NCBI GenBank assembly: GCA_028283825.1
Contig: JAPWJW010000001.1
Location: 248,001 to 312,000 of the forward strand
Direction: 5' to 3'
Origin: Azospirillaceae bacterium
Lineage (GTDB): Bacteria > Pseudomonadota > Alphaproteobacteria > Azospirillales > Azospirillaceae
Length of the DNA: 64,000 bases
The notes below the pieces were generated by a model. It was not told where the DNA came from, did not search any database, and saw only the letters and a list, made by a program, of their open reading frames with translations. Both the position numbers and the translations under genes were made by a program. Positions 37,390 through 61,876 of this stretch are shown here, in pieces. How positions within the stretch are numbered: the first letter of the stretch is position 1; each line of letters opens with the position of its first letter.

Positions 37390-37507
37390 AATCTCCCCGG
37401 AGCGTAGCGACAAGGCCGCGACCGCGGCCGCCGCAGTTTTCCGGGGAACGGAGCGGACTGGAAAACGAGGAAGCCCAGCCACCGGAGGTGGCGCCCGGCG
37501 CCTGAGG
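37390..37507 (+). repeat. Structured intergenic repeat, copy A
   Basis: It lies about 20 bases after the hss stop and before hisZ. It contains hairpin 2 GGCCGCGACCGCGGCC (37414-37429), a long stem GTTTTCC/GGAAAAC (about 37437-37466), hairpin 3 GCCACC-GGA-GGTGGC (37478-37492) and the tail GGCGCCTGAGG. Copies B, C and D at 40184, 58615 and 61748 share the order and the unpaired bases while the stems differ by compensating changes. Confidence 0.8.
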
Positions 37508-37631
37508 GCGAAAGACACATATCCCCTCCCCGGCGGGCGCGGGGCTTAAACAATTGCGCGCCGGCCACGCTGCGATTAAAGACCCGTAACGGGCACTGTC
37601 GCCCTTTCGACGCCCGGGACCCTTCTGCATT

Positions 37632-38783
37632 ATGACTGACAGCGCCGACGAGGCCATTGCGGCCAAGGCCCTGCTGCCGGCCGGCTTGCGCGATCTGCTG
37701 CCGCCCGCCGCCCAGCATGAGGCCCGCATCGTGGAACAGCTGATGGCGGACTTCGCCCGCCATGGGTATGACCGGGTCAAGCCGCCGCTGCTTGAGTTCG
37801 AGGAAGGCCTGCTGGCCGGCCCGGGCGCCAAGCTGGCGCACCAGACCTTCCGCCTGATGGACCCGGTGTCCCAGCGCATGATGGGCCTGCGCGCCGACAT
37901 GACGCCGCAGGTGGCCCGTATCGCCCAGACCCGCCTGGGCAACGCCCCGCGCCCCTTGCGCCTCTCCTACTCCGGCCAGGTGCTGCGGGTTAAGGGCTCG
38001 CAGTTGCGCCACCAGCGCCAGTTCGGCCAGGTGGGCGTGGAACTGATCGGCAGCCTGCGCGCCGAGGCCGACGCCGAGATCGTGCTGCTGGCGACGGAGG
38101 CCCTGACCAATCTGGGCGCCGACGGCCTGACCGTCGACCTGACCGTGCCGACCCTGGTGCCCGCATTGTTCCGCTCACTGGGCCTGGATGAGGCCACGCA
38201 GCGTGCCGCGCGCGAAGCGCTGGACCACCGCGATGCCGCCGGCATCAAGGCCATCGGCGGCACGGCCGCCGATCTGCTGGGCCGGGTCATGGCCTGCTGC
38301 GGCAACGCCCCGGCCGCCGTGGAGGCCCTGGCCGCCGTGGAACTGCCGGCCGAGGCCGAGCCGGAGCGCCAGCGCCTGGCCACCGTGGTCAACCTGATCG
38401 TCAGCGCCGCGCCCCATGTGCAGATCACCATCGACCCGGTGGAGCAGCGCGGTTTCGAATATCAGACGGGCGTCAGCTTCACCCTGTTCGCCCGCGGCGT
38501 ACGCGGTGAGATCGGCCGGGGCGGGCGCTACCGCACCGATGCCGGGGAACCCGCCACCGGCTTCACGCTTTTCACCGACACGGTGATCGAAGCCGTGCCC
38601 GGTCCCACCCCCGCCCGCCGCCTGCTGGTGCCCCACGGCACGCCGGCGGCGCAGGCCCAGCGCCTGCGTGAGAAGGGTTGGGAAACGGTGGCGGCGCTGG
38701 AGCCGTTGGCCGATGATGCGGCGGAAGCCAAGCGCCTGGGCTGCACCCATCTGCTGCGGGACGGCTGGACCGTCGAGGTCTGA
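37632..38783 (+). CDS. hisZ: ATP phosphoribosyltransferase regulatory subunit
   Basis: 383 residues, a histidyl-tRNA-synthetase paralogue: [18 protein letters not shown] at the start, [20 protein letters not shown], then [23 protein letters not shown] (motif 2 region) and QVGVELIGS, with a shortened late region [16 protein letters not shown] replacing the synthetase signature. It is shorter than HisRS and lacks the anticodon-binding domain, as HisZ does. It combines with the short HisG to form the first enzyme of histidine synthesis. The hisZ-purA neighbourhood is familiar in alphaproteobacteria. No clear ribosome site was seen. Confidence 0.94.
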
Positions 38784-38871
38784 CCGAACCGCCCTATCTG
38801 TTTATCCTGCGGGCGGCATCGCGCCGGCCCCGCGTCTGAATTCTCGCGTTTGCGTTCAAGGGAGAACCATC

Positions 38872-40164
38872 ATGGCCAATGTCGCGGTCGTCGGCTCGCA
38901 GTGGGGTGACGAGGGCAAGGGCAAGATCGTCGATTGGCTGTCCAGCCGCGCCGATGTCGTCGTCCGTTTCCAGGGCGGCCACAACGCCGGCCATACGCTG
39001 GTCATCAACGGCGTCGTCTACAAGCTGTCGCTGCTGCCCTCGGGCGTGGTGCGGCCCGGCAAGCTGTCGGTCATCGGCAACGGCGTGGTGGTCGACCCCT
39101 GGGCGCTGCTGCGCGAGATCGACAATATCGCCGGCCAGGGTGTGACGATCACCCCGGAAAGCCTGATCGTGGCCGAGAACGCCACCCTGATCCTGCCGCT
39201 GCACAGCGCGGTGGACAAGGCGCGCGAGGAAGCCAAGGGTGCCGGCAAGATCGGCACCACTGGCCGCGGCATCGGCCCGGCGTACGAGGACAAGGTGGCC
39301 CGCCGCGCCATCCGCCTGTGCGACCTGGCGGACGAGGCGGTGCTGGAACACAAGGTGGACCAGCTGCTGTTCCACCATAACGCCCTGCTGCGCGGCCTGA
39401 ACGCGCCGGAAATCGACCGGGCGGAACTGCTGGCCCAGATCCGTGAGATCGCGCCCCGCATCCTGCCCTACAGCGCCGTCGTCTGGCAGCGCCTGGAAGA
39501 GGCCCGCGCCCAGGGCAAGCGCATCCTGTTCGAAGGCGCCCAGGGCGCCATGCTGGACGTGGACCACGGCACGTATCCCTTCGTCACCTCGTCCAACACC
39601 GTGTCGGGCAACGCCGCCGCCGGCAGCGGCATGGGCCCCGGCGCGGTGGGTTACGTGCTGGGCATCACCAAGGCCTACACCACCCGCGTCGGCTCCGGCC
39701 CCTTCCCGACAGAGCTGCTGAACGACATCGGTGAGCTGATCGGCGCCAAGGGCAAGGAATTCGGCGTGGTGACGGGCCGCAAGCGCCGCTGCGGCTGGTT
39801 CGACGCCGTGCTGGTGCGCCAGGCGGTGAAGGTCGGCGGCATCACCGGCATCGCGCTCACCAAGCTGGACGTGCTGGACGGCATCGAAGAGCTGAAGGTG
39901 TGCACCGGCTATCGCTACAAGGGCGAGATCATCCACCACCTGCCGGCCAGCCAGACCGCCCAGGCGGAAGTGGAACCGATCTACGAGACCTTCGAAGGCT
40001 GGACCGACAGCACCTACGGCGCCCGGTCCTGGGCCGACCTGCCGGCCACGGCCATCAAGTACATCCGCCGCATCGAGGAACTGATTGAGGCGCCGGTGAC
40101 CCTGCTGTCCACCAGCCCCGAGCGCGACGACACCATCCTGATGCGTGATCCTTTCCAGGGGTAA
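38872..40164 (+). CDS. purA: Adenylosuccinate synthetase
   Basis: 430 residues from the ATG at 38872 with GGGAGA upstream; the frame is open earlier but overlaps hisZ. Signature segments: [19 protein letters not shown] (P-loop and catalytic Asp), [12 protein letters not shown], the [14 protein letters not shown] loop near residue 125, [24 protein letters not shown] near residue 220, and TKLDVLDG near residue 330. It joins IMP and aspartate using GTP, the first committed step to AMP. It is followed by repeat copy B and aroA on the same strand. Confidence 0.98.
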
Positions 40165-40183
40165 GGGTTGTCTTAGGAAAAGG

Positions 40184-40297
40184 CCCGATGGCGTACATCA
40201 CGCCATCGGGTAGCCCGCGACCGCGGGCGCCGGAGCGAGTACCGCAGGGCGGAGCGAGGATAGCCAAGCGGCCGGATGGCCGCGCCGGCGCTTGAGG
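40184..40297 (+). repeat. Structured intergenic repeat, copy B
   Basis: Begins 19 bases after the purA stop. Hairpin 1 is CCCGATGGCGT/ACGCCATCGGG (11 bp, perfect; 40184-40210), hairpin 2 GCCCGCGACCGCGGGC (40213-40228), then GAGGATAGCC, hairpin 3 GCGGCCGGATGGCCGC (40269-40284) and the tail GGCGCTTGAGG. Hairpin 3 is identical to that of copy D. The central long stem of copies A and D is shortened here. Confidence 0.85.
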
Positions 40298-40309
40298 AAC
40301 AGGGAAAAA

Positions 40310-41563
40310 ATGGCGACTATCATCATCCCGCCACAGGATCCACTGATGGGCCGGGTGGCGCCGCCGGGGTCCAAGTCCATCACCAATCGCGCCCTGCTGC
40401 TGGCAGGCCTGGCCCAAGGCACCAGCCGGCTGACCGGCGCCCTGAAAAGCGACGACACCCGCTATATGGCCCAGGCCCTGCGCGACATGGGTGTCGCGGT
40501 GGATGAGCCGGACGACACCACCTTCGTCGTCCACGGCACCGGCCGGCTGGCGGCACCCGCCCAACCCCTGTTCCTGGGCAACGCCGGCACCGCCACCCGC
40601 TTCCTGACGGCGGCGGTCGCTGCGGCGGTGGACGGCACCGTGGTGGTGGACGGCGACGCCCACATGCGCAAGCGCCCCATCGCCCCCCTGGTCGCGGCCC
40701 TGAAGACCCTGGGCGTGGACATTACCGCCGAGACCGGCTGCCCCCCCGTCACCGTCAATGGTCGGGGCGGCTATGCCGGCGGCCGGGTGGAGATCGACGG
40801 CGGCCTGTCCAGCCAATACGTCTCCGCCCTTCTGATGATGGGCGCGCTGGGCCGCCAGGCCACCGACGTGGTGCTGACCGGCGCCGACATCGGCGCCAAG
40901 GGCTACGTCGATCTGACCACCGCCGCCATGGCGGCCTTCGGCGCCCAGGTCAGCCACCCCAGCGACACCGTCTGGACCGTGGCCGCCACCGGCTACCGGG
41001 CCGCCGATTTCCATATCGAACCCGACGCGTCAGCCGCCACATATCTTTGGGCGGCGGAGGCCCTGACGGGCGGCGCCATCGACCTGGGCACGCCGGCCGC
41101 CGCCTTCACCCAGCCCGACGCCCGCGCCTACGATTTTATCCGCCTGTTCCCCCACCTGCCAGCCGTCATCGACGGATCGCAGATGCAGGACGCCATCCCC
41201 ACCCTGGCCGTCCTGGCGGCCTTCAACACCACGCCGGTGCGCTTCACCGGCATCGCCAACCTGCGGGTCAAGGAATGCGACCGGGTGGCCGCTCTGGCCA
41301 CCGAACTGGCGCGCATCCGCCCCGGCCTGGGCGTTGAAGAGGGCGACGATCTGCTGGTGGCCAGCGACCCGGCCCTGGTCGGCCAGACCCTGCCCACCCG
41401 TATCGAGACGTACGCCGACCACCGCATCGCCATGAGTTTCGCCCTGGCCGGCCTGAAAATCCACGGGCTGACCATCCTGGATCCCGGCTGTGTCGCCAAG
41501 ACCTATCCCGGCTACTGGGATGCGTTGGCCAGCCTGGGCGTGAAGCTGCAAGACGCGGCGTAA
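40310..41563 (+). CDS. aroA: 3-phosphoshikimate 1-carboxyvinyltransferase (EPSP synthase)
   Basis: 417 residues from the ATG at 40310. It follows the E. coli-type (class I) pattern: PGSKSITNRALLLAGLA, SDDTRYM, LFLGNAGTATRFLTAA near residue 88, RKRPIAPLVAALK, GGLSSQYVSALLM, RVKECDRV near residue 325, ADHRIAMSFALAGL near residue 370 and GCVAKTYPGYW. It condenses shikimate-3-phosphate with PEP. The residue equivalent to E. coli Pro101 is Phe and Met99 is Thr, as in the fungal AROM-type loop; this position affects glyphosate binding. It follows purA and repeat copy B. Confidence 0.96.
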   Translation: MATIIIPPQDPLMGRVAPPGSKSITNRALLLAGLAQGTSRLTGALKSDDTRYMAQALRDMGVAVDEPDDTTFVVHGTGRLAAPAQPLFLGNAGTATRFLTAAVAAAVDGTVVVDGDAHMRKRPIAPLVAALKTLGVDITAETGCPPVTVNGRGGYAGGRVEIDGGLSSQYVSALLMMGALGRQATDVVLTGADIGAKGYVDLTTAAMAAFGAQVSHPSDTVWTVAATGYRAADFHIEPDASAATYLWAAEALTGGAIDLGTPAAAFTQPDARAYDFIRLFPHLPAVIDGSQMQDAIPTLAVLAAFNTTPVRFTGIANLRVKECDRVAALATELARIRPGLGVEEGDDLLVASDPALVGQTLPTRIETYADHRIAMSFALAGLKIHGLTILDPGCVAKTYPGYWDALASLGVKLQDAA

Positions 41564-41566
41564 GGG

Positions 41567-42079
41567 TCAAGGCAGCAGCGGCAACGCCCGGGCAAAATCC
41601 TGAACCCAATCGCGCTGCCCTTCCGTATCCGGCACGGGCACGCCGCGCGCCTGGGCGATACGGGCGAACGCCTGCCCCACATCCAAGCCGCCGCAAGCCA
41701 TCACGCCGGCCACCATCAGCGAAGACCGGCCGATACCCGCCCGACAATGCACGGCAACGGATTGGCCGGTTGCCAGCGCCTGGATCAGACGGCGGGTCAG
41801 CGCGGCTGTCTGGCGTATCGAATCCGGCACGCCCCGGTCGGGAATCGGGAATGCCGTGAAGGCCTGGCCGCTGGCCCGACACAGGGCCGCCTCCTCTTCC
41901 AACCCCAGTTCCCTGACCTCCGCCGGCTCCAGCAGGCTGACCACCTCGCCCACGCCGGCATCGCGCCAGCCAGCGATTTCATCCTCCAGCCAATCGCCGG
42001 AACGGGGGCGCGCCATGATGGCCAGCCGGCCTGTCCAAGACAGGCCCTCGCTATTGATCCAATAAAGGGCGGGCCGCAT
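41567..42079 (-). CDS. Dual-specificity-type protein phosphatase
   Basis: About 170 residues from the ATG at 42079 (MRPALYWI); the longer open frame to 42136 lacks family features. Contains the general-acid Asp loop FPIPDRGVP near residue 85 and the P-loop HCRAGIGRSS with the C-x5-R signature near residue 112, flanked by MVAGVMACGGLDVGQAFARIAQARG. Cytosolic. It overlaps nothing and is convergent with aroA (3-bp gap). The substrate is unknown; a second, unrelated phosphatase with the same loop is at 9335. Confidence 0.85.
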   Translation of the reverse strand: MRPALYWINSEGLSWTGRLAIMARPRSGDWLEDEIAGWRDAGVGEVVSLLEPAEVRELGLEEEAALCRASGQAFTAFPIPDRGVPDSIRQTAALTRRLIQALATGQSVAVHCRAGIGRSSLMVAGVMACGGLDVGQAFARIAQARGVPVPDTEGQRDWVQDFARALPLLP

Positions 42080-42189
42080 GCCGGGCGTCCTTCGGGTGGG
42101 CACAAATTGTCGGGGAGGACGCCGCAATGACGCCAAACCCGGTCAGAAGGCCCGCGAACGGACCGGCAGTCAAGACGGGACAGCTCCCC

Positions 42190-42225
42190 TTGACGCCCCC
42201 TTCGAATCGATTCTACATTGTAGAA
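42190..42225 (+). promoter_or_regulatory. padR promoter with overlapping operator
   Basis: TTGACG (42190-42195) and TACATT (42214-42219) are 18 bp apart, and the perfect palindrome TTCTACATTGTAGAA (42211-42225) covers the -10. The PadR gene starts 22 bp later. The arrangement predicts autorepression by blocking RNA polymerase. Confidence 0.65.
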
Positions 42226-42247
42226 GAAATCAGGGAGGGCAAACCCC

Positions 42248-42586
42248 ATGGGCAGAAACACGCTGGGCGCCTTGGAACAGGCGATCATGATGGTCATCCT
42301 GGCGCTGGGCGACGGCGCCTACGGCGTCGCCATCCGGGATGAGCTGTCGCGGCGCACGCAGCGCGACCATTCCTTCGGCGCCGTCTACACCACGCTGGAC
42401 CGGCTGGTGGCCAAGGAGTTGCTGATCACCCACCTGGGCGAACCGACCCAGAAGCGCGGCGGCCGGGCCAAGCGTTTCTTCACACTGACGCCGGAGGGCC
42501 GGCAGGCGCTGGACGGGGCGGTGAACGCGCGCCAGGAACTGGAAAGCGGCCTGGGCCTGGCCTCCTCGCTGCTGGCCGGGCGGTGA
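42248..42586 (+). CDS. PadR family transcriptional regulator
   Basis: 112 residues with GGGAGGG upstream of the ATG. The winged-helix PadR domain is complete: LGALEQAIMMVILALGDGAYGVAIRDELSRRT, FGAVYTTLDRLVAKELL and GRAKRFFTLTPEGRQAL, with a short C-terminal dimerisation helix. The short form and the adjacent membrane protein with a prefix-like N terminus match the PadR-permease pairs found in many bacteria. A dyad overlapping the -10 of its promoter supports autorepression. The effector is unknown. Confidence 0.9.
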   Translation: MGRNTLGALEQAIMMVILALGDGAYGVAIRDELSRRTQRDHSFGAVYTTLDRLVAKELLITHLGEPTQKRGGRAKRFFTLTPEGRQALDGAVNARQELESGLGLASSLLAGR

Positions 42587-42590
42587 TCCC

Positions 42591-43433
42591 ATGACGACGA
42601 CGCCAAGGTCCCATTCCGCCGCCGTCATCACCCCTCTGAACCTGCCCCTGTTCCCCCGCCTGTGCCTGATGCTGGTCGCCACCGCCGACGAGGTGGAGGA
42701 CCGCATGGGCGATTTACAGGAGGTCTACGCCAACAACCTGGCGGCCTGGGGCGAGGAAGAGGCCTTGCGGCGCTACCGGCGCGACATCGCGTCCTGCATC
42801 CTGGCCATCGCCTATCGGCGGCTGGAAAACCTGGTGCTGCTGCGGTTCCTGGACCGGCTGAAGGCGCTGGAATCCATCCTGGCTGGGGCGTTTTCCCTGG
42901 CCCTGGCCTTTGTTCTGCTATCGCAGTTGGTGCCGCCGCCCTGGTGGATGCGGGCGGGGCTGGCCCACAACCCCGGCACCTTCCTGGGCGGCAACCTGGT
43001 GGAATACCCGTTCTGCCAGGGCTGGACGGATTACAAGGGCGGCAACCGCATGCAGGCGGCCCTGGACACCCCCGGCGCCCACGTCACGGAAGTCGGGACC
43101 CAGGAACCCTTCCGCGCCGGGTCGGAGCAGAACCTGCGCGTCCTGCTGCCCGCGACGGCCCAGGTGGTCGCCGTCTATTGCGGCATCTCGCAGCGTGCGG
43201 CCGCCATGGACGAATGCGCGCTGCGCGCCACCTGCGGCAAGGGCGTCTGGCCCGCCCTGAGGGATGAGCAATACAGCAGCAGCCGTATCCTGACAGTGAG
43301 CATGCTCAACAAGACGGTCCTGGGCCGCGACCACACCGTCGGCCATTTCTGGGTCGTGTGGAAGGACGGGGCCCCCCCGGCGTCCGCCAAGCCACCCCCG
43401 GCCGCCCCACGGGTGGGCCCAAACCCGACCTGA
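42591..43433 (+). CDS. PadR-associated single-pass membrane protein (permease-prefix-like N terminus)
   Basis: 280 residues, starting 4 bp after the padR stop. The first 80 residues (ATADEVEDRMGDLQEVYANNLAAWGEEEALRRYRRDIASC) resemble the prefix domain found in front of FtsX-type permeases encoded next to PadR genes. One clear membrane segment follows (ILAGAFSLALAFVLLSQLV, about residues 98-117), then a Cys-containing extracytoplasmic part with QNLRVLLPATAQVVAVYCGISQRAAAMDECALRATCGKG, and a Pro-rich tail. The permease part itself is missing. The function is unknown; it is probably regulated by the PadR protein. Confidence 0.7.
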   Translation: MTTTPRSHSAAVITPLNLPLFPRLCLMLVATADEVEDRMGDLQEVYANNLAAWGEEEALRRYRRDIASCILAIAYRRLENLVLLRFLDRLKALESILAGAFSLALAFVLLSQLVPPPWWMRAGLAHNPGTFLGGNLVEYPFCQGWTDYKGGNRMQAALDTPGAHVTEVGTQEPFRAGSEQNLRVLLPATAQVVAVYCGISQRAAAMDECALRATCGKGVWPALRDEQYSSSRILTVSMLNKTVLGRDHTVGHFWVVWKDGAPPASAKPPPAAPRVGPNPT

Positions 43434-43497
43434 CATATAGGCGGACATCACCGCGTTCAGGCTTGCCACAACCGCGCAAACCGGCGGAGGGATGATC

Positions 43498-45015
43498 ATG
43501 CCTGCACGATGGGTTCATGCCACCGGCCTGGCGCTTGTCCTGGCGATCACCCCGCCGGCCTCAGCCCAGACCGCACCGGACACGCAAATGGCCGACGCCG
43601 GCCGCTGGTCGGTGTGGGGCAGCAGCCCCACCTTCATGGCCGACGACCAGATGCCCGGCGGCACCGTAGTATCCGTGGCGGCATACGGTCCCGACGGCGT
43701 GGACTGGTCAAACGGCGCGGGGATGATGGTGCCCCACGCGCTGAAGGCGGGTGACCGGATCAGCGGCGTCTTCTGGGCGCGATCGGCACGGCCGGCGCGG
43801 GTGCTGGCCACCCTTCAGGGCCAGGCGCCCGGCTACGCCGTCCTGGCCCTGGCGCCCATCGACCTGACGCCGACATGGACACGCTACACCATCAGCGGCG
43901 TGGCGTCCTCGGATCTGGCCGCCGGCACGCAGTTCCTGACCCTGCAACTGGGCAAGGCGGCGGCCGGCGCCACCTTGGGACCGGTGCTGTTCATGGCCGG
44001 CGAGCCCGATGACACCCGTATCCAGGCGACCTTCGCCCACTTCCAGCCGGTGGAGGTGGTGCGGGATGTACGCATCCCCTCCGACCCCGGAGTGACCTTG
44101 GCGGGACGGCTGCGTCTGCCGGGCCGGCATGGACCGGGGCCGTTCCCCGTGGTCATCCTGCTGAACGGCAGCGGGCCGGGCCGGCGGGGCGTCTTTCCCC
44201 GCATCGAGGACCGGCTGCTGGCCGACGGCATCGCCACCCTGGACTACGACAAGCGTGGAGTGGGCGAATCCACCGGCGATTTCGTCGATACTTTGGAATT
44301 GATGGAACGGGACGCCACGGCGGCCGTGGCCTATCTGCGCGCCCGGCCCGACGTGGACGGGGCCCGCATCGGTTTCCTGGGCCTGAGCCAGGGCGGCGTG
44401 GTCGGCCCGGGCGCCGCCGCGAACGATCCGCGCATCGCCGCCATCGTCATGCTGGCCGGCCCGGTGGGGGCCAAGGGCACGATGTTCCTGGACGCCATGG
44501 CGAACACGCTCGCCGCCGGCGGCATGGCCGCCGACAGGATCGCCCCCATCATCGCCGCCGCCCGTACCCTGATGGAGGCCCGCGCCGCCGGCGCGTCACC
44601 GACAACGGCCGCCCGGCAGGCGCTGCTGGACGCCTTCATCGCCGCGGGCTGGACGCCGGAGCAAGCAGGCGGCGCGCTGGCCACGCTGGACACGCCTGTG
44701 ACCTTGTCGATGTACCTGGCGCCCTTGGATGATGTCCTGGCCAAGGTGCGCGCCCCCGTGCTGGCCGTCTACGCCGGGGACGACCATATCGTCTCAACCC
44801 CGAAAAGCATGGCCGCCGCCGAGGTCGCCCTGCGCGGCAATCCCGACGCCACGGTGGTGGAACTGCCAGGCCTTGATCACGTCTTTCATGAACCCGGCCT
44901 GGGAGACATCAGCCGGTTGCCGGTGGTGCCGCCGGCGGCGGCGGCACCCGAGATGGTGGATCTGGTCGGACGCTGGCTGGATGCCCGCCTGCGGCCAGCG
45001 CCACCGGTGGACTGA
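43498..45015 (+). CDS. Secreted alpha/beta hydrolase (acyl-peptidase/esterase type) with N-terminal beta domain
   Basis: About 505 residues; ATG at 43498 is spaced correctly from GGCGGAGGG, while an ATG at 43492 is too close. A signal peptide (WVHATGLALVLAITPPASAQ) is followed by a carbohydrate-binding-like beta domain (residues about 30-175), then a hydrolase core: LLNGSGPGRRG, TLDYDKRGVGESTG, the nucleophile GLSQGG near residue 300, AGDDHIV with the acid Asp and GLDHVFHEPG with the catalytic His. It resembles periplasmic esterases/acyl-peptide hydrolase-like proteins. The substrate is unknown. It stands alone after the PadR operon. Confidence 0.85.
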   Translation: MPARWVHATGLALVLAITPPASAQTAPDTQMADAGRWSVWGSSPTFMADDQMPGGTVVSVAAYGPDGVDWSNGAGMMVPHALKAGDRISGVFWARSARPARVLATLQGQAPGYAVLALAPIDLTPTWTRYTISGVASSDLAAGTQFLTLQLGKAAAGATLGPVLFMAGEPDDTRIQATFAHFQPVEVVRDVRIPSDPGVTLAGRLRLPGRHGPGPFPVVILLNGSGPGRRGVFPRIEDRLLADGIATLDYDKRGVGESTGDFVDTLELMERDATAAVAYLRARPDVDGARIGFLGLSQGGVVGPGAAANDPRIAAIVMLAGPVGAKGTMFLDAMANTLAAGGMAADRIAPIIAAARTLMEARAAGASPTTAARQALLDAFIAAGWTPEQAGGALATLDTPVTLSMYLAPLDDVLAKVRAPVLAVYAGDDHIVSTPKSMAAAEVALRGNPDATVVELPGLDHVFHEPGLGDISRLPVVPPAAAAPEMVDLVGRWLDARLRPAPPVD

Positions 45016-45019
45016 AACC

Positions 45020-53141: not shown

Positions 53142-53144
53142 CCC

Positions 53145-53813: not shown

Positions 53814-53985
53814 GATGGTTCCCCCCGGGGCCGGTTTAGGTCGGGCGCAGTGTGGACCCCGCCGCCGTGCCCGGCAAGTGTGCACCGCACAAAACCCACC
53901 CTTCCAAAAGGGGGAGCCGGCCTTGCGGCATCGCCCCTTGGACAGGGCGGTGTCGGGAAGGCTAGATAGGGGGACGCAAAGCAAG

Positions 53986-55002
53986 ATGGCCGCCCCCGTG
54001 ACCGAACCGAAGACCCTTCCGCCCTCTGGTCCCGCCCCGGACATGTCCCCGCCCACGCCGCCGGCCCTGGCGCGCGCCGCCGAGGCGCTGGCGCAGGGCA
54101 AACTGGTGGCCTTCCCGACGGAGACGGTCTACGGCCTGGGCGGTGATGCCGGCAACGATCAGGCGGTGGCCGACATCTTCGCCGCCAAGGGCCGCCCCAG
54201 CTTCAACCCCCTGATCGTGCACCTGCCCGACGTCGCGGCGGTGGAGCGCTACGCCGTGATGGATGAGCGCGCGCACCAGATGGCGGATCTGTATTGGCCG
54301 GGGCCGTTGACCCTGGTGCTGCCCCGCCGGCCCGACGCGCCCCTGTCGCTGCTGGTCAGCGCCGGGCTGGACACGGTGGCCATCCGCGTGCCGCGCCATC
54401 CCACCGCCCGCGCCCTGCTGCAGGCCAGCGGCCGCCCCATCGCGGCGCCCAGCGCCAACCGGTCCGGCCATGTCAGCCCCACCGCCCCCGTCCATGTGCG
54501 CGAGGAATTTCCCGAGGGCGGCGGCGGGCGCCTGGCCCTGATCCTGGCCGACGGCCGCTGCCCGGTGGGGGTGGAATCCACCGTGCTGGACCTGTCCGGC
54601 GCGGTGCCGGTGCTGCTGCGCCCCGGTTCCATCACGCCGGAGGAGATCGAGGCCGTGCTGGGCCCCCTCCAGCGCGCCGCCGCCGGCGCCGCCGTCAAGG
54701 CGCCCGGCATGCTGGAAAGCCACTACGCCCCCGGCATCCCCGTCCGCCTGAACGCGCTGAACGCCGCCAAGGATGAGGCGCTGTTGGGCTTCGGCCCCGA
54801 CCGTTTCGTCCTGGGCGGTGCCGAACGGCTGAACCTGTCGCCCAGCGGCGATCTGAACGAGGCGGCCGCCAACCTGTTCGCCATGCTGCGCCGCCTGGAC
54901 AAGCCGGAGTTGGCTGGCATCGCCGTCATGACCATCCCCGACGTCGGCCTGGGCCTGGCCATCAACGACCGCCTGCGCCGGGCGGCGGCCCCCCGGGCTT
55001 GA
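53986..55002 (+). CDS. L-threonylcarbamoyladenylate synthase (Sua5/YwlC type)
   Basis: 338 residues from the ATG at 53986. N-terminal YrdC domain: KLVAFPTETVYGLGGDAGN, IFAAKGRPSFNPLIVHL, YWPGPLTLVLPRR, VAIRVPRHPTARALL and IAAPSANRSGHVSPTAPVHV (about residues 40-170), then the C-terminal Sua5 domain after the linker SPGM-type segment KAPGMLESHYAPGIPVRL near residue 245. It makes threonylcarbamoyl-AMP for the t6A37 modification of ANN-decoding tRNAs. The two-domain form makes it Sua5 rather than TsaC. Confidence 0.95.
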   Translation: MAAPVTEPKTLPPSGPAPDMSPPTPPALARAAEALAQGKLVAFPTETVYGLGGDAGNDQAVADIFAAKGRPSFNPLIVHLPDVAAVERYAVMDERAHQMADLYWPGPLTLVLPRRPDAPLSLLVSAGLDTVAIRVPRHPTARALLQASGRPIAAPSANRSGHVSPTAPVHVREEFPEGGGGRLALILADGRCPVGVESTVLDLSGAVPVLLRPGSITPEEIEAVLGPLQRAAAGAAVKAPGMLESHYAPGIPVRLNALNAAKDEALLGFGPDRFVLGGAERLNLSPSGDLNEAAANLFAMLRRLDKPELAGIAVMTIPDVGLGLAINDRLRRAAAPRA

Positions 55003-55069
55003 CCTTGGCCCATCGGCGGGTAAACGGTTAGGTTCCCAGGCACCCCCGTCCTTTGCCCCAAGGCCCCCC

Positions 55070-55603
55070 ATGGATCCCCGGCAGATCGTCCTTCTGGCCC
55101 AGTACAACAGCTGGATGAACGCCAAGCTGTTTGAGGCCGCGGCACGCCTGCCGGCGGCGGAGCTGGCGGCCGACCGGGGCGCCTTCTTCCGTTCCCTCCT
55201 GGGCACGCTGAACCACCTGCTGGTGGTTGACCTGTTGTGGCTGCGCCGCTTCCGCGAGCATCCGCCGGGCTATCCCGCGCTGGATCCGGTGCTGGAGTTG
55301 CCCCGTCCTGATCGGCTGGACCAGATTCTATACCGGGAGCTGGACGGCTTGGCCGAGGCGCGGCGCCGGATGGACCAGGCCATGGAAGCCTGGGCGGCCA
55401 CCCTGCCGGCCGAGGTGCTGGATCAAACCCTGCGCTTCACCAGTTACCGGGGCGATGCCTACGCCAAGCGTTTCGGCGACATCGTCCTGCATCTTTTCAA
55501 CCACCAGACCCACCATCGCGGCCAAGCCACCACCCTGCTGAGCCAGGCCGGCCAGGATGTGGGCGCCACCGACCTGTCGGCCCTGATTCCGGATGAGGCA
55601 TGA
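55070..55603 (+). CDS. DinB family protein
   Basis: 177 residues, four-helix DinB/YfiT-like fold: the first metal-ligand His in LLGTLNHLLVVDLLWLRRF near residue 50 and the later pair in LFNHQTHHRGQATTLLSQAG near residue 145. These proteins bind a divalent metal and include thiol-dependent transferases; many are stress-induced. The overlap ATGA with the following FAD oxidase gene shows co-transcription. Confidence 0.9.
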   Translation: MDPRQIVLLAQYNSWMNAKLFEAAARLPAAELAADRGAFFRSLLGTLNHLLVVDLLWLRRFREHPPGYPALDPVLELPRPDRLDQILYRELDGLAEARRRMDQAMEAWAATLPAEVLDQTLRFTSYRGDAYAKRFGDIVLHLFNHQTHHRGQATTLLSQAGQDVGATDLSALIPDEA

Positions 55604-57042
55604 TGACCACCCCCTCCCCTGATACCGTCCGCGACCTTCTGGCCGCCCTGGCCGACCTGCTGGGCCCCACCGGCGTGCTGACCGCGGCGGACGCGCAGGA
55701 ACCTTACCTGACGGAGGCGCGGGGCAACGGCGTCAGCACGCCCCTGGCCGTGCTGCGCCCGTCCACCACGGACGAGGTGGCGGCCGTGGTGCGCCTGACG
55801 CGGGCCGCCGGCATCGCCCTGGTGCCCCAGGGCGGCAACACCGGGCTGGTGGGCGGCGCCCTGGCGGGACAAGGCACCTTGCTGCTGAACCTGGGACGCC
55901 TGAACCGCATCCGCGAGATCGACGCCCTGGACCACACCCTGACGGTGGAGGCCGGCGTCATCCTGGCCACGGTGCAGCAGGCGGCCCATGACGTGGACCT
56001 GATGTTCCCCCTGAGCCTGGGTGCCGAGGGCAGTTGCACCATCGGCGGCAACCTGTCGACCAACGCCGGCGGCATCCTGACCCTGCGCTACGGCAACGCC
56101 CGCGCCCAGGTGCTGGGGCTGGAGGTGGTGCTGCCCGACGGGCAGGTGTGGAACGGCCTGCGCCGCCTGCGCAAGGACAACACCGGCTATGACCTGAAGC
56201 AGCTGTTCCTGGGCGCCGAAGGCACGCTGGGCATCATCACCGCCGCCGTCCTGTCGCTGGTGCCCCGGCCGCGCCAGCTGGAAACGGCGCTGGTGGCCGT
56301 GCCCGACATCGATGCCGCCCTGCGCCTGCTGAAGCGCCTGCGCCAGGCCAGCGGCGACGCCGTGTCGGCGTTCGAGCTGATGCCCCGCTTCGCCATCGAT
56401 GGGGCCGCCCGCTACCTGGGCGAACAGAACGACCCGCTGGCCGAGCCGTCCCCCTGGTACATCCTGACCGAACTGACGGCGGGCACGGCCGGCGACGCCC
56501 TGCGCCAGACCATCGAGGCGGCGTTGGGCGAGGCCATGGAGGCCGGCGACGTCACCGACGCCACCCTGGCCGCCAGCGGCGACCAGCGGCAGAAGCTGTG
56601 GCGCCTGCGCGAGGGCCTGCCGGAGATCGGGCGCAAGGTGGGCGGCGCCCTGCACCACGACGTGGCGGTGCCGGTCAGCCGCATCCCGCAGTTGATCGCG
56701 CGGGCGGACAAGGCGGTGGCCACACTTTGCCCCGGCGCCCGCCCCTACCCCTTCGGCCATCTGGGCGACGGCAACATCCATTACAACATCGCCCGGCCGA
56801 TTGGTGACGATGCCGCCGGGCGCCAGGCCTTCCTGGACCAGGGCCCCGCCATCATGCGCGCGGTGCACGACGTGGTGCTGGACCTGGGCGGGTCCATCAG
56901 CGCCGAACACGGCATCGGCAGCCGCAAACGCGACGAACTGGCCCGTGCCCGCGACGCACTGGAAGTAACGCTGATGGCAAGCGTCAAACGCCTGCTGGAC
57001 CCGGACAACCTCATGAATCCGGGAAAAATACTACCCCGATAG
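55600..57042 (+). CDS. FAD-binding oxidoreductase (GlcD / D-2-hydroxyglutarate dehydrogenase-like)
   Basis: 480 residues. FAD_binding_4 domain with VPQGGNTGLVGGAL near residue 75, GAEGSCTIGGNLSTNAGGILTLRYGNARAQVLGLEVVLPDG near residue 140 and KQLFLGAEGTLGIITAAVLSL near residue 205; then an FAD-oxidase C domain with GHLGDGNIHYN and SAEHGIGSRKRDEL near residue 445. The GDGN-x-H-x-N metal motif and the EHGIG end are typical of D-2-hydroxyacid dehydrogenases that give electrons to the quinone pool or ETF. Overlaps dinB. Likely substrate D-2-hydroxyglutarate, D-lactate or glycolate. Confidence 0.92.
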   Translation: MMTTPSPDTVRDLLAALADLLGPTGVLTAADAQEPYLTEARGNGVSTPLAVLRPSTTDEVAAVVRLTRAAGIALVPQGGNTGLVGGALAGQGTLLLNLGRLNRIREIDALDHTLTVEAGVILATVQQAAHDVDLMFPLSLGAEGSCTIGGNLSTNAGGILTLRYGNARAQVLGLEVVLPDGQVWNGLRRLRKDNTGYDLKQLFLGAEGTLGIITAAVLSLVPRPRQLETALVAVPDIDAALRLLKRLRQASGDAVSAFELMPRFAIDGAARYLGEQNDPLAEPSPWYILTELTAGTAGDALRQTIEAALGEAMEAGDVTDATLAASGDQRQKLWRLREGLPEIGRKVGGALHHDVAVPVSRIPQLIARADKAVATLCPGARPYPFGHLGDGNIHYNIARPIGDDAAGRQAFLDQGPAIMRAVHDVVLDLGGSISAEHGIGSRKRDELARARDALEVTLMASVKRLLDPDNLMNPGKILPR

Positions 57043-57163
57043 GCAGGCCATCGCGGCTGGCGCCCCCTACAAGCCTAGACCGACCCTGACCTTTGGCGTG
57101 AATTGACGCCGACTCGACGGCCGTGCGACCCTTGGTAGTAGATAAAGGAGCCCCGTGGTGCCG

Positions 57164-57179
57164 CCCCCGTTCGCGGGGG
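57164..57179 (+). repeat. CCCCCG-TTCG-CGGGGG hairpin
   Basis: Perfect 6-bp stem with a TTCG loop, 25 bases before the ATG of the small frame at 57205. No T-run follows. It may be a leader hairpin of that frame. Confidence 0.45.
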
Positions 57180-57204
57180 TAGCCTGGACAGAGGGAGAGA
57201 GCCG

Positions 57205-57420
57205 ATGCCTGCCAAGACCTCGACCACCCCGACCACCTCCGCATCCGCGCCCACCTACATGCGGTTGCTGCGGGGGACCCTCAGCCGCCGTCCCACCTCG
57301 CAATCTTACGACGCCGACGGCCAGGACGATGCTGGCGATAGCCGGCAGATGTCCGGCAGCTGCGGCAACGGCCAGATGGTGGCCGGTCGCGCCGACGACC
57401 CGGCACTCGTCCACTTCTAG
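57205..57420 (+). CDS. Small hypothetical protein
   Basis: 71 residues with a good GAGGGAGAGA ribosome site. Polar, Ser/Thr/Gly/Asp-rich, with a short basic stretch YMRLLRGTLSRRP in the first third and no membrane or export signal. No family recognised. It fills an otherwise empty 467-base gap before the histidine kinase. The good ribosome site is the main support. Confidence 0.4.
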   Translation: MPAKTSTTPTTSASAPTYMRLLRGTLSRRPTSQSYDADGQDDAGDSRQMSGSCGNGQMVAGRADDPALVHF

Positions 57421-57509
57421 TGGTCCTGTTTTCGCGGGCCGCGTAACCAAAAGGATGTGTTCGGCCGGGGGTTGTGATCAAGGATAGTGTGACGGTCCGG
57501 GAGGGCGGT

Positions 57510-58604
57510 ATGATCCGCCCCATGAAGTCTGTCATCGCCGCCCTTTTGCCCCTGCGCCGGCGCCCAGCATCGTTGCGTTATGCCGGCGCCGCCCTGCTGG
57601 TCCTGCTTGCCTTCGGGTTGCGCGTCGTCCTGGATGATTTCCTGGACGGTTATCCCGTCATCCAATTCTTTCCGGCGCTGGTGCTGGGCACCCTGTGCTT
57701 TGGCCGGGGGCCCGGCCTGGCGGCCGTGGCGCTAAGCACCCTGCTGGCCCTGCCCTTCATCGCACCTGCCGATGACGGCATGACCTTGATGCGGCAGGCC
57801 GCCACCCTGGGCGACCGGCTGGCGGCGATGCCGCCCCGGGGATGGATGGGCCCTGCCCTGTTCATCGTCATCAGCCTGGTGGTCGTGGCCATCGTCGCCG
57901 CCCTGCATCACACCATGGACAGCCTGGAACGGGCGGAACAGCAGCAGGCGATGCTGCTGCGTGAGATTTATCACCGCATCCGCAACGACCTTCAGTCCAT
58001 CTCCAGCCTGCTGATGGTGGCGGAGACGCGGGCGGGCGGGGCCGAGGCGGCGGAACTGGCCAAGGCCGGCGAACGGGTGCGGGTGCTGGGCCTGGTCTAT
58101 TCCAGCCTGCAACGGTTGCAGCGCGAACCCTTCGTGCCGGCGCGAACCTTCCTGGGCCAGTTGGTCGACAATCTGGCCGCCGCCCATGCCGGCGGCCGGC
58201 CCATCACCTTCGCGGTGGAGGTCGGGGATCTGAACCTGCCGCAGCGCGCCGCCGTGACGCTGGGCCTGGCGGCCAACGAACTGGTGATCAACGCCCTGAA
58301 ATACGCCTTCCCGGACGGCCGCGCCGGCACCATCGTCGTGCGCCTGGCGGCGGAGGGGGACCAGTGGGTGCTGCGGGTGGAGGATGACGGCGTGGGCCTG
58401 CCGCCCACGGCAACTTCCGCCCCGCCGGGCACGCCAGGGCCGGCAGAAGATTCCGGTCCCGCCGGCAAGACCCTGCGGCCGCGCACCGGCCTGGGCCGGC
58501 CCCTGCTGGAGCAGCTGGCCCGGCAATGCGGCGGACAGTTGGGCCAGGCCAGCGACGGTGGCCTGAAAGCCTGGCTATCGGTGCCCGTAACGCCCGAGAC
58601 TTAA
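57510..58604 (+). CDS. Membrane-bound sensor histidine kinase (HisKA_2 / HWE-like group)
   Basis: 364 residues from the ATG at 57510, preceded by GGGAGGG (a GTG at 57474 in frame is less likely). The N-terminal half has four hydrophobic segments like a DUF4118 sensor (AGAALLVLLAFGLRVVL, FFPALVLGTLCFG, LAAVALSTLLALPF, ALFIVISLVVVAIVAAL). The phosphoacceptor box LLREIYHRIRNDLQSISSLL follows near residue 155, then the ATPase domain with AANELVINALKYAFPDGRAG (N box) near residue 255 and VEDDGVGLPP (G1). No response regulator adjoins, so it is an orphan kinase. Repeat copy C starts 10 bases after its stop. Confidence 0.9.
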   Translation: MIRPMKSVIAALLPLRRRPASLRYAGAALLVLLAFGLRVVLDDFLDGYPVIQFFPALVLGTLCFGRGPGLAAVALSTLLALPFIAPADDGMTLMRQAATLGDRLAAMPPRGWMGPALFIVISLVVVAIVAALHHTMDSLERAEQQQAMLLREIYHRIRNDLQSISSLLMVAETRAGGAEAAELAKAGERVRVLGLVYSSLQRLQREPFVPARTFLGQLVDNLAAAHAGGRPITFAVEVGDLNLPQRAAVTLGLAANELVINALKYAFPDGRAGTIVVRLAAEGDQWVLRVEDDGVGLPPTATSAPPGTPGPAEDSGPAGKTLRPRTGLGRPLLEQLARQCGGQLGQASDGGLKAWLSVPVTPET

Positions 58605-58614
58605 AATCATCCAG

Positions 58615-58729
58615 GCGGCATGGGATTTTGGCTCATGCCGCTAGGACGCTCCCCTCGTCCGCCGGAGCGTTTTGGGAAGCGTCAGCGAACTGAAATGCGA
58701 GGATAAGCCCAGGCGACCGGCGTTTGAGG
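58615..58729 (+). repeat. Structured intergenic repeat, copy C
   Basis: Starts 10 bases after the histidine-kinase stop. Hairpin 1 is GCGGCATGGG/CTCATGCCGC (58615-58641). The middle part differs: ACGCTCC/GGAGCGT followed by TTTT looks like an intrinsic terminator. The tail GAGGATAAGCCCAGGCGACCGGCGTTTGAGG keeps the family consensus. It is the most diverged of the four copies. Confidence 0.7.
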
Positions 58730-58737
58730 GCCGCGCC

Positions 58738-59647
58738 TCATGCATTAACCATATAGGCGGCGGCCATGTTGGGCGCGCGGTTGGTGGTCATGCGGTCCTG
58801 CTGCTGGTCGTAGCCGTCCTGCTTTTCCTGATCATCATCGTCGGTGGGGGCGGCCAGGGCGTTCAGCATCATGATGGTGTAGGTGGACAGCGGCATCTTC
58901 GACGAGCTGGCGCCCCGCACCATGTCCCAGGGCTGGGAAGAGCTGTCGGCCGTCTGCACCGTGCCCAGGGTGGTGGACCCGGCATATTTGTCCGAGGTGG
59001 CGCCGTCGAACTTCTTGGCGAAATGGTCGTAGACCTGGCCCAGGGACAGGGCCTTGCCGTTGTCGTCGTAGAACACCGCGTCGTTGGCGTCGGCCGCGTC
59101 GGGTACCACGGCATCAGCCGACTGGTTGGGGTTTTTCTTCAGCGCGTTCAGGAACTTGGAGGCGCCACCGGCACCCAGGAAATGGGCCAGGTACAGCTCC
59201 GTGCTGCCGATGCTGCCGCCCACCTGCTGCTGCAGCGTGGTCTTGTTGTCCTGCGCCAGCTGGGCCGCCATCATGGCCGAGGTGCCGGCATCCTTGCGCA
59301 GGTACGAGAATCTTTTGCCGGGTGGCGGCGTCGGCGACATAGAGGCTGCCGTCGCTGCGGGTCTTGATGGCGCTGGCGTACTGGCCCAGGCCGACCTCGC
59401 TTCCATGCTGCTGCACCATGTTCAGCCATGTGGAGTCGGTGAACTGATACAGGCCGGTGGCGCTGCTGGTGCTGGCTTTGGCGTTGACGTTGTATCCGCT
59501 TTCCACGGACGCCTGCTTCATCAGATAGGAAAAATCTACCCCGGCCCGGTTGCTGGCCTGCTGAACGGCGGCCACGATCCGGGCGGGGGCCGAGGTGCCG
59601 AAACCCTGTGCTGCAGTCAACTGCGTGGTGGACAGTGCGGTGTTCAC
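58738..59647 (-). pseudogene. Lytic transglycosylase (SLT) domain protein, one-base frameshift near 59303
   Basis: The first frame from 59647 encodes an SLT-like domain: VAAVQQASNRAGVDFSYLMKQASVESGYNVNAKA with the catalytic Glu, and TGLYQFTDSTWLNMVQQHG, up to AATRQKIL. The second frame resumes LRKDAGTSAMMAAQLAQDNK and runs to 58738 with GSTELYLAHFLGAGGASKFLNALKKNPNQSA. One inserted base in the minus-strand CTCGTACCTGCG restores a single protein of about 302 residues. Family members cleave peptidoglycan glycan strands, often during assembly of envelope-spanning structures. No Sec signal is evident at the start. A sequence error is likely. Confidence 0.85.
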
Positions 59648-59945
59648 GACCGTGCCTCACATAACTGGAAAACGACCGGCCGACGGGGCCGACCCATTGT
59701 TGGCCGAATAGGAAAGCAAGGGACGTGCCAAGTGCGGCGACATGGGCCGCCGCGCGCCAAAGCTTGCCCACGCCGCACCATCCCGGCAGGATGGTGCCCG
59801 CGTCGACGGGACGCGGCCCTGGCTGTTCAATGACGGGCCCGCCCGCCCAACAACATTGAGCATTCCGCCGGCAGCAGCGGGCCCGCCTCCGGAAACCTGA
59901 GCCCGGGAGCGTTGGGCCGCCACCGGCGGGTCCCCGGGAGGACCC
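59648..59945. other. Divergent promoter region, with a 9-bp inverted repeat
   Basis: 298 bases between the SLT gene (minus) and the acyl-CoA dehydrogenase (plus). No frame with a ribosome site. It contains a perfect inverted repeat GCACCATCC/GGATGGTGC around CGGCA at 59775-59797, a candidate operator or leader hairpin. Confidence 0.5.
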
Positions 59946-61734
59946 ATGACTTACCGCGCCCCGCTGAAGGAAATCCGTTTCGTCCTGAATTCCGTGGTCG
60001 GGCTGGACCGCATCACCCAGTTCCCCGCCTTCGAGGCCGCCGACGCCGACCTGGTGGACGCCGTGCTGGAGGAAGGGGCCAAACTGGCCGACAACGTGCT
60101 GGCCCCCCTGAACGTGGTGGGTGACCGCCAGGGGGCCAAGCTGACGGATGAGGGCGTGCGCACCGCCGAGGGCTTCAAGGACGCCTACCGCCAGTTCGTG
60201 GAGGGCGGCTGGAACAGCGTGCCCTTCGCGCCCGACCATGGCGGCCAGGGCCTGCCCTGGACCCTGTCCACCGCCCTGATGGAAACCTGGACCAGCGCCA
60301 ACATGTCCTTCGCGCTGGGGCCGCTGCTGACGCAAGGGTCGGTGGAACTGCTGACCGCCCACGGGTCGGAGGAGCAGAAGAAGGCCTATCTGGAAAAGCT
60401 GATCACCGGCGAATGGACCGGCACCATGAACCTGACGGAACCGCAGGCCGGTTCCGACGTGGGTGCCGTGCGCACCCGCGCGGTGCGCCAGGACGACGGC
60501 ACCTACCGCATCAGCGGCCAGAAGATCTTCATCACCTATGGCGACCATGACTGGTCGGACAACATCGTCCACCTGGTGCTGGCCCGCACGCCGGAGGCAC
60601 CGGCGGGCACCAAGGGCATCTCACTGTTCATCGTCCCGAAATACCTGCTGAACGCCGACGGCACACCGGGCGCCCGCAACGACGCCCGCTGCGTCAGCCT
60701 GGAACACAAGCTGGGCATCCACGGCAGTCCGACGGCGGTGATGAGCTACGGCGACGAGGGCGCTTGCGTCGGCTATCTGGTCGGGCAGGAGAACCGCGGC
60801 ATCGTAATACATGTTCACCATGATGAACAACGCCCGCCTGGGCGTCGGCCTGCAAGGTGTCGCCATTGGTGAACGCGCCTACCAGCAGGCGGTGGACTAT
60901 GCCAAGACGCGGGTGCAGAGCCGCGACCTGGCCGGCGGACCGCAGCCGGTGACCATCATCCATCACCCCGACGTGCGCCGCATGCTGCTGACCCAGCGAT
61001 CCAAGGTGGAGGCGGCGCGCGCCATCGTCTATTTCACCGCCGCGGCCTTGGACGGCCGGCACAGCGATCCCGACCCGGAAGCCGCCAGGGCGTCCGGCCT
61101 GTTGAACGACCTGCTGACCCCCGTGGCGAAAGCATGGAGCACCGACATCGGGGTGGAGGTCGCCAGCCTGGGTGTGCAGGTGCACGGCGGCATGGGCTTC
61201 ATCGAAGAGACGGGGGCCGCCCAGTATTACCGTGACGCCCGCATCGCCCCGATTTACGAGGGCACCAACGGCATCCAGGCCAATGACCTGGTGTTCCGCA
61301 AGCTGGGCCGCGATGGCGGGGCCGCCGCCCACACCCTGTTCGCCCTGATGCGGGAGACGGCGGAGGATGCCGCCGGCCAGCCGGGCGACGATTTGGCCAC
61401 CATCGCCCAGGGCCTGACGCGGGGCATCGCGGCGCTGGAGGGCGCCACCGCCTGGCTGGTGGATCATCTGAAGGCCGATCCGCGCGCGGCGGCCGCCGGT
61501 GCCGTCCCCTACCTGACCCTGTTCGGCAACGTCACCGGCGCCTTCCTGCTGGCCCGCGGCGCCATCGCCGCCAACCAGGCGCTGATGCGCGGCCAGGACG
61601 CGGCCTTCCATGAGGCCAAGCTGATCACCGCGCGGTTCTTCGTGGAACAGGTGCTCAACCCCTCCCTGGGCCTGGCCGACGTCATCCGCGACGGCCACCG
61701 CACCGTAGTGGCGCTGGGCGAGGATCAGTTCTGA
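59946..61734 (+). pseudogene. Acyl-CoA dehydrogenase (about 596 residues), one-base frameshift near 60805
   Basis: The first frame from 59946 has the N-terminal and middle domains: YRAPLKEIRFVLNSVVGLDR, MNLTEPQAGSDVG, ISGQKIFITYGDHD and KLGIHGSPTAVMSYGDEGACVGYLVGQENRG. The usual continuation M-x-Y-M-F-T-M-M-N-N-A-R-L-G-V-G-L-Q-G is found in the second frame, which runs to 61734 with VQVHGGMGFIEETGAAQYYRDARIAPIYEGTNGIQANDL and the C-terminal extra domain of the long ACAD group. One extra base at 60801-60809 separates the frames. It would desaturate acyl-CoA with ETF as acceptor. Otherwise intact, so an error is likelier than loss. Confidence 0.88.
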
Positions 61735-61747
61735 AGAGAGCCCACCA

Positions 61748-61876
61748 GCGGCATGAGGTCTACCTCATGCCGCCATAGGCTGCGACCGCAGCAGCCGCAG
61801 GTTTTACGGGGAGCCGCAGGCGGACTGGAAACCGAGGATAGCCCAGCGGCCGGATGGCCGCGCCCGCCGTTTGAGG
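61748..61876 (+). repeat. Structured intergenic repeat, copy D
   Basis: Starts 13 bases after the acyl-CoA dehydrogenase stop. Hairpin 1 GCGGCATGAGG/CCTCATGCCGC with loop TCTA (61748-61773), hairpin 2 GCTGCG-AC-CGCAGC (61779-61792), a long stem GGTTT/AAACC (about 61800-61833), then GAGGATAGCCCA, hairpin 3 GCGGCCGGATGGCCGC (61846-61861) and the tail CGCCGTTTGAGG. It is the most complete copy. Confidence 0.85.

Follow-up and report, generated by a model that had tools for sequence, protein, structure and literature searches.

Several kinds of described repeats come close to the element reported here. Miniature inverted-repeat transposable elements (MITEs) such as Correia/Nemis, ERIC and RUP are likewise short, non-coding, geneless, foldable and present in high copy number, and they duplicate their target. 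The Rickettsia palindromic elements and the rhizobial RIME, likened here by description, are palindromic repeats too; they occur in Alphaproteobacteria and measure about 100-150 bp. According to PMC3733652, repetitive extragenic palindromes (REPs) and REPINs with a REP-associated tyrosine transposase (RAYT) are extragenic palindromes found in hundreds of copies, paired or in tandem, and the CGTC-tagged REPs of Caulobacter, Rhodopseudomonas and others are alphaproteobacterial palindromic repeats without a dedicated transposase. Elements of the IS1031 group prefer the target TNA and give a 3-bp repeat (PMC12016507). We analyzed a 64,000-nucleotide stretch of an Azospirillaceae genome (the window; contig JAPWJW010000001.1, positions 248,001 to 312,000), which contains four structured intergenic repeats, A to D. 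These repeats are quite likely copies of a non-autonomous mobile element that has spread through the Alphaproteobacteria and that duplicates the TNA triplet at which it inserts. The element occurs in high copy number with a shared architecture and covarying stems, TNA repeats stand at its ends, empty sites are found, and its copies lie at gene ends.

The repeats in the window

A covariance model was built from 39 copies in the genome to which the window belongs (the home genome), A, B and D included. Its scan of the window gave exactly four places, A-D, and the next best match scored 12 bits. All four fold better than their own shuffles (z = -2.34, -3.66, -2.47 and -2.69, respectively). Their features, all on strand +, are as follows.

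37396-37412, +: copy A, alternative 5' module CGGAGCGTAGCGAC replacing hairpin 1 (from sequence)
37412-37508, +: copy A, core (93.7 bits, model R1)
37414-37429, +: copy A, hairpin 2, within the core
37436-37442 paired with 37460-37466, +: copy A, long stem, within the core
Between long stem and hairpin 3, +: copy A, box GAGGAAGCC, within the core
37478-37492, +: copy A, hairpin 3, within the core
37502-37507, +: copy A, tail CTGAGG, within the core
40184-40210, +: copy B, hairpin 1, CCCGATGGCGT/ACGCCATCGGG (sequence and fold)
40211-40298, +: copy B, core with short mid hairpin, between purA and aroA (71.7 bits)
40213-40228, +: copy B, hairpin 2, within the core
40256-40265, +: copy B, box GAGGATAGCC, within the core
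40268-40283, +: copy B, hairpin 3, within the core
40292-40297, +: copy B, tail TTGAGG, within the core
58615-58641, +: copy C, hairpin 1, GCGGCATGGG..CTCATGCCGC (sequence and fold)
58641-58730, +: copy C, degenerate core with an eroded hairpin 2, a deletion of hairpin 3 and the tail TTTGAGG (64.5 bits)
61748-61773, +: copy D, hairpin 1, GCGGCATGAGG/CCTCATGCCGC (sequence and fold)
61775-61878, +: copy D, core (93.9 bits)
61779-61792, +: copy D, hairpin 2, within the core
61800-61804 paired with 61829-61833, +: copy D, long stem, within the core
61834-61843, +: copy D, box GAGGATAGCC, within the core
61846-61861, +: copy D, hairpin 3, within the core
61870-61876, +: copy D, tail TTTGAGG, within the core

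Copies A, B and D clearly belong to a single structured family, of which C is a damaged member. The first-pass annotation of this DNA had given all four the same order of elements, which the sequences of A, B and D bear out and the degenerate C does not. Its supposedly invariant hairpin-2 centre, GCGACCGC, is present in three of the four, C having GCTCCCCTC instead. The GAGGA(T)AGCC box, the GGA(T) loop and the TTGAGG/CTGAGG tail were correctly described for A, B and D. Three details needed amendment: the long gene-proximal hairpin is absent from A, which carries another 5' module (CCCCGGAGCGTAGCGAC); the long stem is replaced in B by a short mid hairpin; and the outermost pair of the hairpin-2 stem in D is broken in the pair table. 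The decamer GAGGATAGCC with at most one mismatch has three matches in the window against 2.9 expected. It is therefore not enriched alone, and the evidence is the whole architecture rather than that box.

Architecture of the full element

Comparison with other genomes places these cores within a larger unit. A full copy reads, in order, TACC, hairpin 1, hairpin 2, a mid hairpin, hairpin 3, TTGAGG, hairpin 4 and GTA (usually GGTA), and is flanked by 3-bp TNA repeats. Delimited copies (n = 23) are 144-194 bp long, 22 of them within 144-171 bp, and contain no gene. The loops are often TTGAC in hairpin 1, and are GACC, GGAT and GGTCA in hairpins 2, 3 and 4, respectively. Outside Nitrospirillum, to which we assign the home genome, the core inside this unit measures about 74 bp because a short mid hairpin replaces the long stem; AAGCCAAG stands between the mid hairpin and hairpin 3, and hairpin 3 is followed by CGCCCGGCG, TTTGAGG, hairpin 4 and GGTA. 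The same full form exists in Nitrospirillum, with a long mid hairpin. The motif (G)TAGG precedes hairpin 2 and is internal to the element. Among 54 sampled copies of the home genome, 12 have hairpin 4, and four are preceded by GGAGCGNAGCGAC, the 5' module of copy A. Copies A-D are mostly incomplete copies of the element.

The TGAC of loop 1 is associated with the presence of hairpin 4 (counts 7, 3, 9 and 25; Fisher p 0.022), the hairpin detector used here having also counted unrelated hairpins (L309 and L326). A pairing between the loops of hairpins 1 and 4 was considered on this basis and set aside, as descent of subfamilies can account for the association.

Some variants were also seen. Six loci (L108, L110, L112, L115, L124 and L127) of G010, the metagenome-assembled genome (MAG) CAIXKV01, have a variant core with the box GCCCCAGTGTGTGGACT(CT)AGGGGG, or one near it, between the mid hairpin and hairpin 3. 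Locus L116 of the same MAG (1643-1684) has only a palindrome of 42 bp, TACC..GGTA, flanked on each side by TCA; it may be the smallest unit that moves. In another copy (L355, 165-330) the long stem is extended to a long perfect palindrome.

Copy number and distribution

The first-pass annotation counted a family of four, too low by about two orders of magnitude. With the covariance model, all 150 scored candidates of the home genome match (worst E 1.3e-16), so that it has at least 150 copies; BLAST with copy D as query gave 43 matches. The string GCGAGGATAGCC occurs 25 times, with no occurrence of a reversed control. All of these 25 places but C5:869711 are accounted for: of 22 places read by eye, 21 are element copies and one (L019) is not, and the other two are copy B itself and a model match at C3:2658900-2658998. 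Four copies per 64 kb scale to about 450 per genome; 38 genome matches of TRCCAGCGGCRYGAG, a motif in 6 of the 54 sampled copies, correspond to about 340, and the 25 matches of GCGAGGATAGCC, in 2 of the 54, to about 650. The samples were chosen by score and not randomly; we estimate roughly 300-650 copies. Other arrangements include a tandem array of three (L009) and, at 8 loci, divergent pairs whose 5' ends face each other.

Forty genomes were searched with the model, seven of them assigned to Nitrospirillum (genus inferred): the home genome and six congeners, G001-G006, which include N. amazonense BR 11880 (G003), N. iridis DSM 22198 (G005) and N. viridazoti CBAmc (G006). Matches were found in 18 of the 40, namely every one of the seven Nitrospirillum genomes and 11 of the other 33. 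In each congener 101-102 of 102 scored candidates match, giving at least 101 copies apiece; the 11 genomes outside the genus have 1 to 98 matches each. An exact 26-base core pattern was found in at least 120 stretches of genome contigs. The genera named among the matches listed are Nitrospirillum, Niveispirillum, Oleisolibacter, Aerophototrophica, Roseomonas, Falsiroseomonas, Roseococcus, Acidiphilium, Telmatospirillum, Paramagnetospirillum, Terasakiella, Sphingorhabdus, Sphingomonas and Sphingopyxis; all listed titles that name a class or finer rank are alphaproteobacterial, and some MAGs are labelled merely Proteobacteria. The same architecture thus recurs in other families of the Alphaproteobacteria. 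Plasmid records gave one match, from Niveispirillum (the searched genomes include Niveispirillum cyanobacteriorum, G017), and phage records none. In G010 the 3' end of the element occurs 452 times with at most 3 mismatches and never in the reversed control, and full copies that are nearly identical lie in differing surroundings.

The 26-base pattern also matches 24 stretches of viral contigs. In one viral-classed contig (IMGVR_UViG_2708742415_000004; L287 and L288) the core forms tandem arrays with a 108-bp spacing. Several element-bearing viral-classed contigs (L187, L274-L294) have one phage-like gene cluster in common with a Sphingomonadaceae contig, which we take to be perhaps a gene transfer agent.

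Target repeats and empty sites

When 278 copies were screened for one TNA-TACC-like start and one GTA-like-TNA end, the TNA triplets at the two ends were equal in 15 of 19 copies (permuted mean 5.9, maximum 13 in 10,000). An overlapping sample, with ends defined by hairpins among 355 screened cores, gave equality in 13 of 23 (permuted mean 3.9, maximum 11), and in 9 of the 13 from outside the genus. Copies with equal TNA in the home genome are L318, L327, L328, L349 (by eye) and L352. Copy C is flanked by TCA at 58607-58609 and 58738-58740, a weak candidate for a target repeat, the second being also the stop codon of the neighbouring gene.

Sites with and without the element were compared among congeners. 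In G003 a full copy (L130, about 831-980) with TGA on both sides interrupts a small gene, which we take to be PIN-like, and which is present without an insert in G001, G002 and G006. At site C, the copy is absent from all six congeners, where 5-31 nt separate the genes against 133 in the window. At site A, a copy is present in G004 and a degenerate remnant, recognized by eye, in G005; G001, G002, G003 and G006 have other genes there. At site D, a copy following a terminator-like hairpin is found in G001, and none was seen in the stretches of the other five congeners examined.

Site B, after purA, has the element in all six congeners. Its orientation is that of the window in G001, G002, G003 and G006, and is reversed in G004 and G005 (L131 and L133-L135, compared with 40165-40310). 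G001 has two copies in tandem, and aroA does not adjoin. The copy of G002 (L128, 2904-3000) has a long mid hairpin where that of the window (40211-40298) has a short one, with hairpins 2 and 3 the same; the difference is a swap of one hairpin.

Placement relative to genes

None of 79 hits (78 distinct) in 61 home-genome loci and the window overlaps a gene called by a crude finder based on codons. The 71 complete copies (70 distinct) that have a neighbour on each side lie between convergent genes in 41 cases, codirectional genes in 14 (sense) + 14 (antisense) and divergent genes in 2. Neighbouring pairs without a copy are 3 convergent, 38 codirectional and 13 divergent in the same loci, and 8, 32 and 9, respectively, in the window. 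Orientation along replicons C1 (33 copies) and C3 (85 copies) shows no trend among the copies listed.

Such placement is also what would be seen if the repeats were cis-acting RNA elements of 3' ends, for instance bidirectional terminators, mRNA stabilizers or processing sites kept at each locus by selection, with hairpin 1, which comes right behind the stop codon, as the terminator. In favour of this proposal, copies immediately follow stop codons and lie between convergent genes, A-D fold strongly (z -2.3 to -3.7), and the element is present behind purA in all six congeners. Against it, 14 copies in codirectional surroundings are sense and 13 distinct copies antisense (one locus, fetched twice, being removed), and this lack of strand bias relative to transcription argues against a role as sense-strand RNA. 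The orientation at purA is reversed in two congeners, all six lack the copy at site C, and by eye no run of T follows A-D, the only places inspected for this feature of intrinsic terminators, no terminator scan having been made. Convergent gaps without a copy are short (0-11 nt in 6 of 8), so that any insert would adjoin two stop codons. A strand preference in folding energy was examined as well and rejected: the advantage of the + strand in 109 of 121 copies is mostly a matter of composition (90% vs 82% in shuffles). We regard the cis-RNA explanation as very unlikely; the placement fits insertion tolerated at gene ends, not sense-strand RNA.

Covariation and its interpretation

The covariation noted in the first-pass annotation is real. 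In the 39-copy alignment 97.8% of the cells are paired, and double changes occur in 16 of 26 pairs. A larger alignment, of 126 matches (123 distinct) fitted to the model, again has 97.8% of cells paired, with double changes in 17 of 26 pairs (8 of 500 shuffles reach 17), 450 double-change cells compared with 116.6 in shuffles, and a covariation score of 0.427 against 0.125 shuffled and at most 0.054 slid. The annotation had staked its claim of a structured intergenic family with covarying hairpins on further copies and on covariation in an enlarged alignment; both were found, and the claim is upheld by the covariance-model search and the alignment. Its further step, from compensating changes to selection on structure, is not secure.

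Three sites at which two species both have a copy were compared: A in the home genome and G004, L020 and L186, and L040 and L042, the last with one flank aligning. In each comparison 6 of the 26 pairs are doubly changed, 0-1 have a G-T change and 1-2 are broken; random pairs of the family have a mean of 5.36 double changes (5451 pairs). Paired changes are likewise present between L330 and L242, compared by eye. The purA-aroA copies look vertically inherited; of their 15-20 comparable pairs, 0-1 are doubly changed and 0-2 broken. Double changes so accompany the turnover of copies or hairpins, not slow repair at a locus. If the element is mobile, its stems will vary among copy lineages. Given the rarity of G-U pairs (13 G-T and 5 A-C among 1439 cells of hairpins 2 and 3) and same-site pairs that differ like random copies, covariation is not a secure sign of RNA selection, and it need not mean it.

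These observations bear on a mutational origin of the covariation, by template switching between hairpin arms in DNA replication or by gene conversion that swaps hairpins. This explanation contests the reading of the covariation, not the mobility of the element. Template switching creates and maintains hairpins according to PMC8794818. Hairpins 2 and 3 have few G-U intermediates next to 277 double-change cells, many double changes are from G-C to C-G and impossible via G-U, and the purA-aroA mid hairpin is long in G002 and short in the home genome with the rest alike. By contrast, the strong conservation of loops and linkers implies some sequence constraint, G-T cells are common in the long stem (46 without the constitutive pair vs 5 A-C), as expected if one strand folds, and the vertically inherited purA copies keep broken pairs uncorrected. 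A mutational process is a serious contender here, with a chance that we put slightly short of even. Template switching from one arm to the other could produce this pattern with no selection on RNA; folding may also be needed for propagation as DNA.

Search for a mobilizing enzyme

A mobile element of this kind would depend on an enzyme acting in trans. Palindromic, intergenic copies in the hundreds suggest an element of the REP/BIME type that a RAYT (Y1 tyrosine transposase) would mobilize, as do the divergent pairs at 8 loci, the (G)TAGG before hairpin 2, and the presence of two Y1 matches, one strong, in G010, whose copies are the most homogeneous. The Y1 domain (PF01797, E ≤ 0.001) is found in 13 of the 40 genomes, in none of the seven Nitrospirillum genomes, and in 5 of the 11 others with element matches. 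In place of a 20-40 bp palindrome with a GTAG tag, the element has four or five hairpins and an internal (G)TAGG. The RAYT mechanism is not known to produce target repeats, and we count them against this origin. Movement by a RAYT thus appears highly improbable.

A MITE derived from an insertion sequence of the IS5 family (IS1031-type) would share the TNA target. The corresponding transposase domain (DUF4096, PF13340) is absent from G010; the home genome has eight, and the copies that can be delimited end in AGAGTCC-type repeats, not in TACC. Among insertion sequence families this search covered PF13340. We rate an IS1031-type origin as unlikely.

Autonomous partners were also sought among the loci themselves. 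Twelve 3' ends without the usual core were read in G010: six have the variant core with the inserted box, three are bare palindromes and three are partial, and none belongs to a gene-bearing element. Of the 38 home-genome places that start with TRCCAGCGGCRYGAG, 20 were read; 19 have a core and L336 has hairpin 1 alone, again with no gene-bearing element. Only TACC/GTA is common to the element ends, and the loci read contain no autonomous transposon to match against. Recurrent neighbours were taken as the 45 largest clusters of neighbouring open reading frames and viewed, with no family search, through residues 1-60 of a single representative per cluster, so that a transposase may be among them.

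Weighing of the mobile-element interpretation

Several results count against a mobile element. No transposase for it was found, the search being limited to Y1 and PF13340. No match occurs in 22 of the 40 genomes, some of the same family included. Within the genus, equal TNA triplets are seen in 4 of 10 copies of the hairpin-defined set (291 of 10,000 permutations are as good), and, with the start set by a TACC-like sequence, in 6 of 19 copies with hairpin 4 (L130, L162, L200, L318, L327 and L328; inspection by eye showed one further case, L013, to be spurious). Triplets are unequal at L340, L342, L343, L345 and L348. Hairpin 4 is missing from most sampled home-genome copies, whose movement is left unexplained. 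Finally, same-site copies that differ like random ones are at odds both with plain vertical descent and with simple insertion.

If the repeats are nevertheless mobile, an enzyme supplied in trans would recognize the folded or palindromic ends TACC..GTA, with the complementary loops of hairpin 1 (TGAC) and hairpin 4 (GGTCA) perhaps forming part of them, and would insert the element at TNA. Copies would survive where they are least harmful, between gene ends. The boxes GCCG, GAGGATAGCC, CGGATG, CGCCCGGCG and TTGAGG suggest that the core, too, is needed for propagation. A bolder proposal is a new kind of transposable element, in which a folded single strand of DNA or RNA is mobile, an enzyme from outside the REP and MITE systems recognizes the hairpins, loops 1 and 4 join the ends through TGAC/GTCA, insertion is at TNA, and the folding core, not long terminal repeats, is the recognition unit. 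We hold this to be doubtful, if conceivable. The enzyme, if found, would show how transposition is directed by a core that folds and not by long terminal repeats.

Comparison with known systems

The family is apparently undescribed, as judged from Rfam and the openly licensed literature. In line with the first-pass annotation, which recognized no named family, Rfam has no match at A-D at gathering score. Its two matches in the window lie elsewhere: an ALIL pseudoknot (RF01497, 18322-18438, strand -, 115 bits), presumably the frameshift signal of IS3-type insertion sequences, and a tRNA gene (RF00005, 19454-19526, strand -). At a relaxed threshold (E ≤ 5), seven related loci gave three matches of 19.1-21.7 bits against gathering scores of 50-75, one of them in the element region (Pseudomon-groES, L100 250-349, below gathering). 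We found no description of this repeat family in the openly licensed literature, and a term search of PMC6006769 gave 0 occurrences.

The family accounts for a considerable share of the repetitive sequence between genes in Nitrospirillum and its relatives. It is also a warning case, in that striking base-pair covariation may be a mark of mobile DNA and does not have to imply a functional RNA.

Like a MITE, the element is short and geneless and has target-site duplications (15 of 19 and 13 of 23, weaker in its own genus with 4 of 10). It differs from the MITEs named above in its TNA target, in a terminal repeat of only about 4 bp, in its four or five separate hairpins with a conserved structured core, and in that no related autonomous element was found. 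From the REPs and REPINs, as described in PMC3733652, it is set apart by its length of about 100-170 bp rather than 20-40 bp, by target repeats and by the absence of a RAYT from the genus. The CGTC-tagged REPs of the same paper differ by description, being single palindromes of 20-40 bp with a CGTC end.

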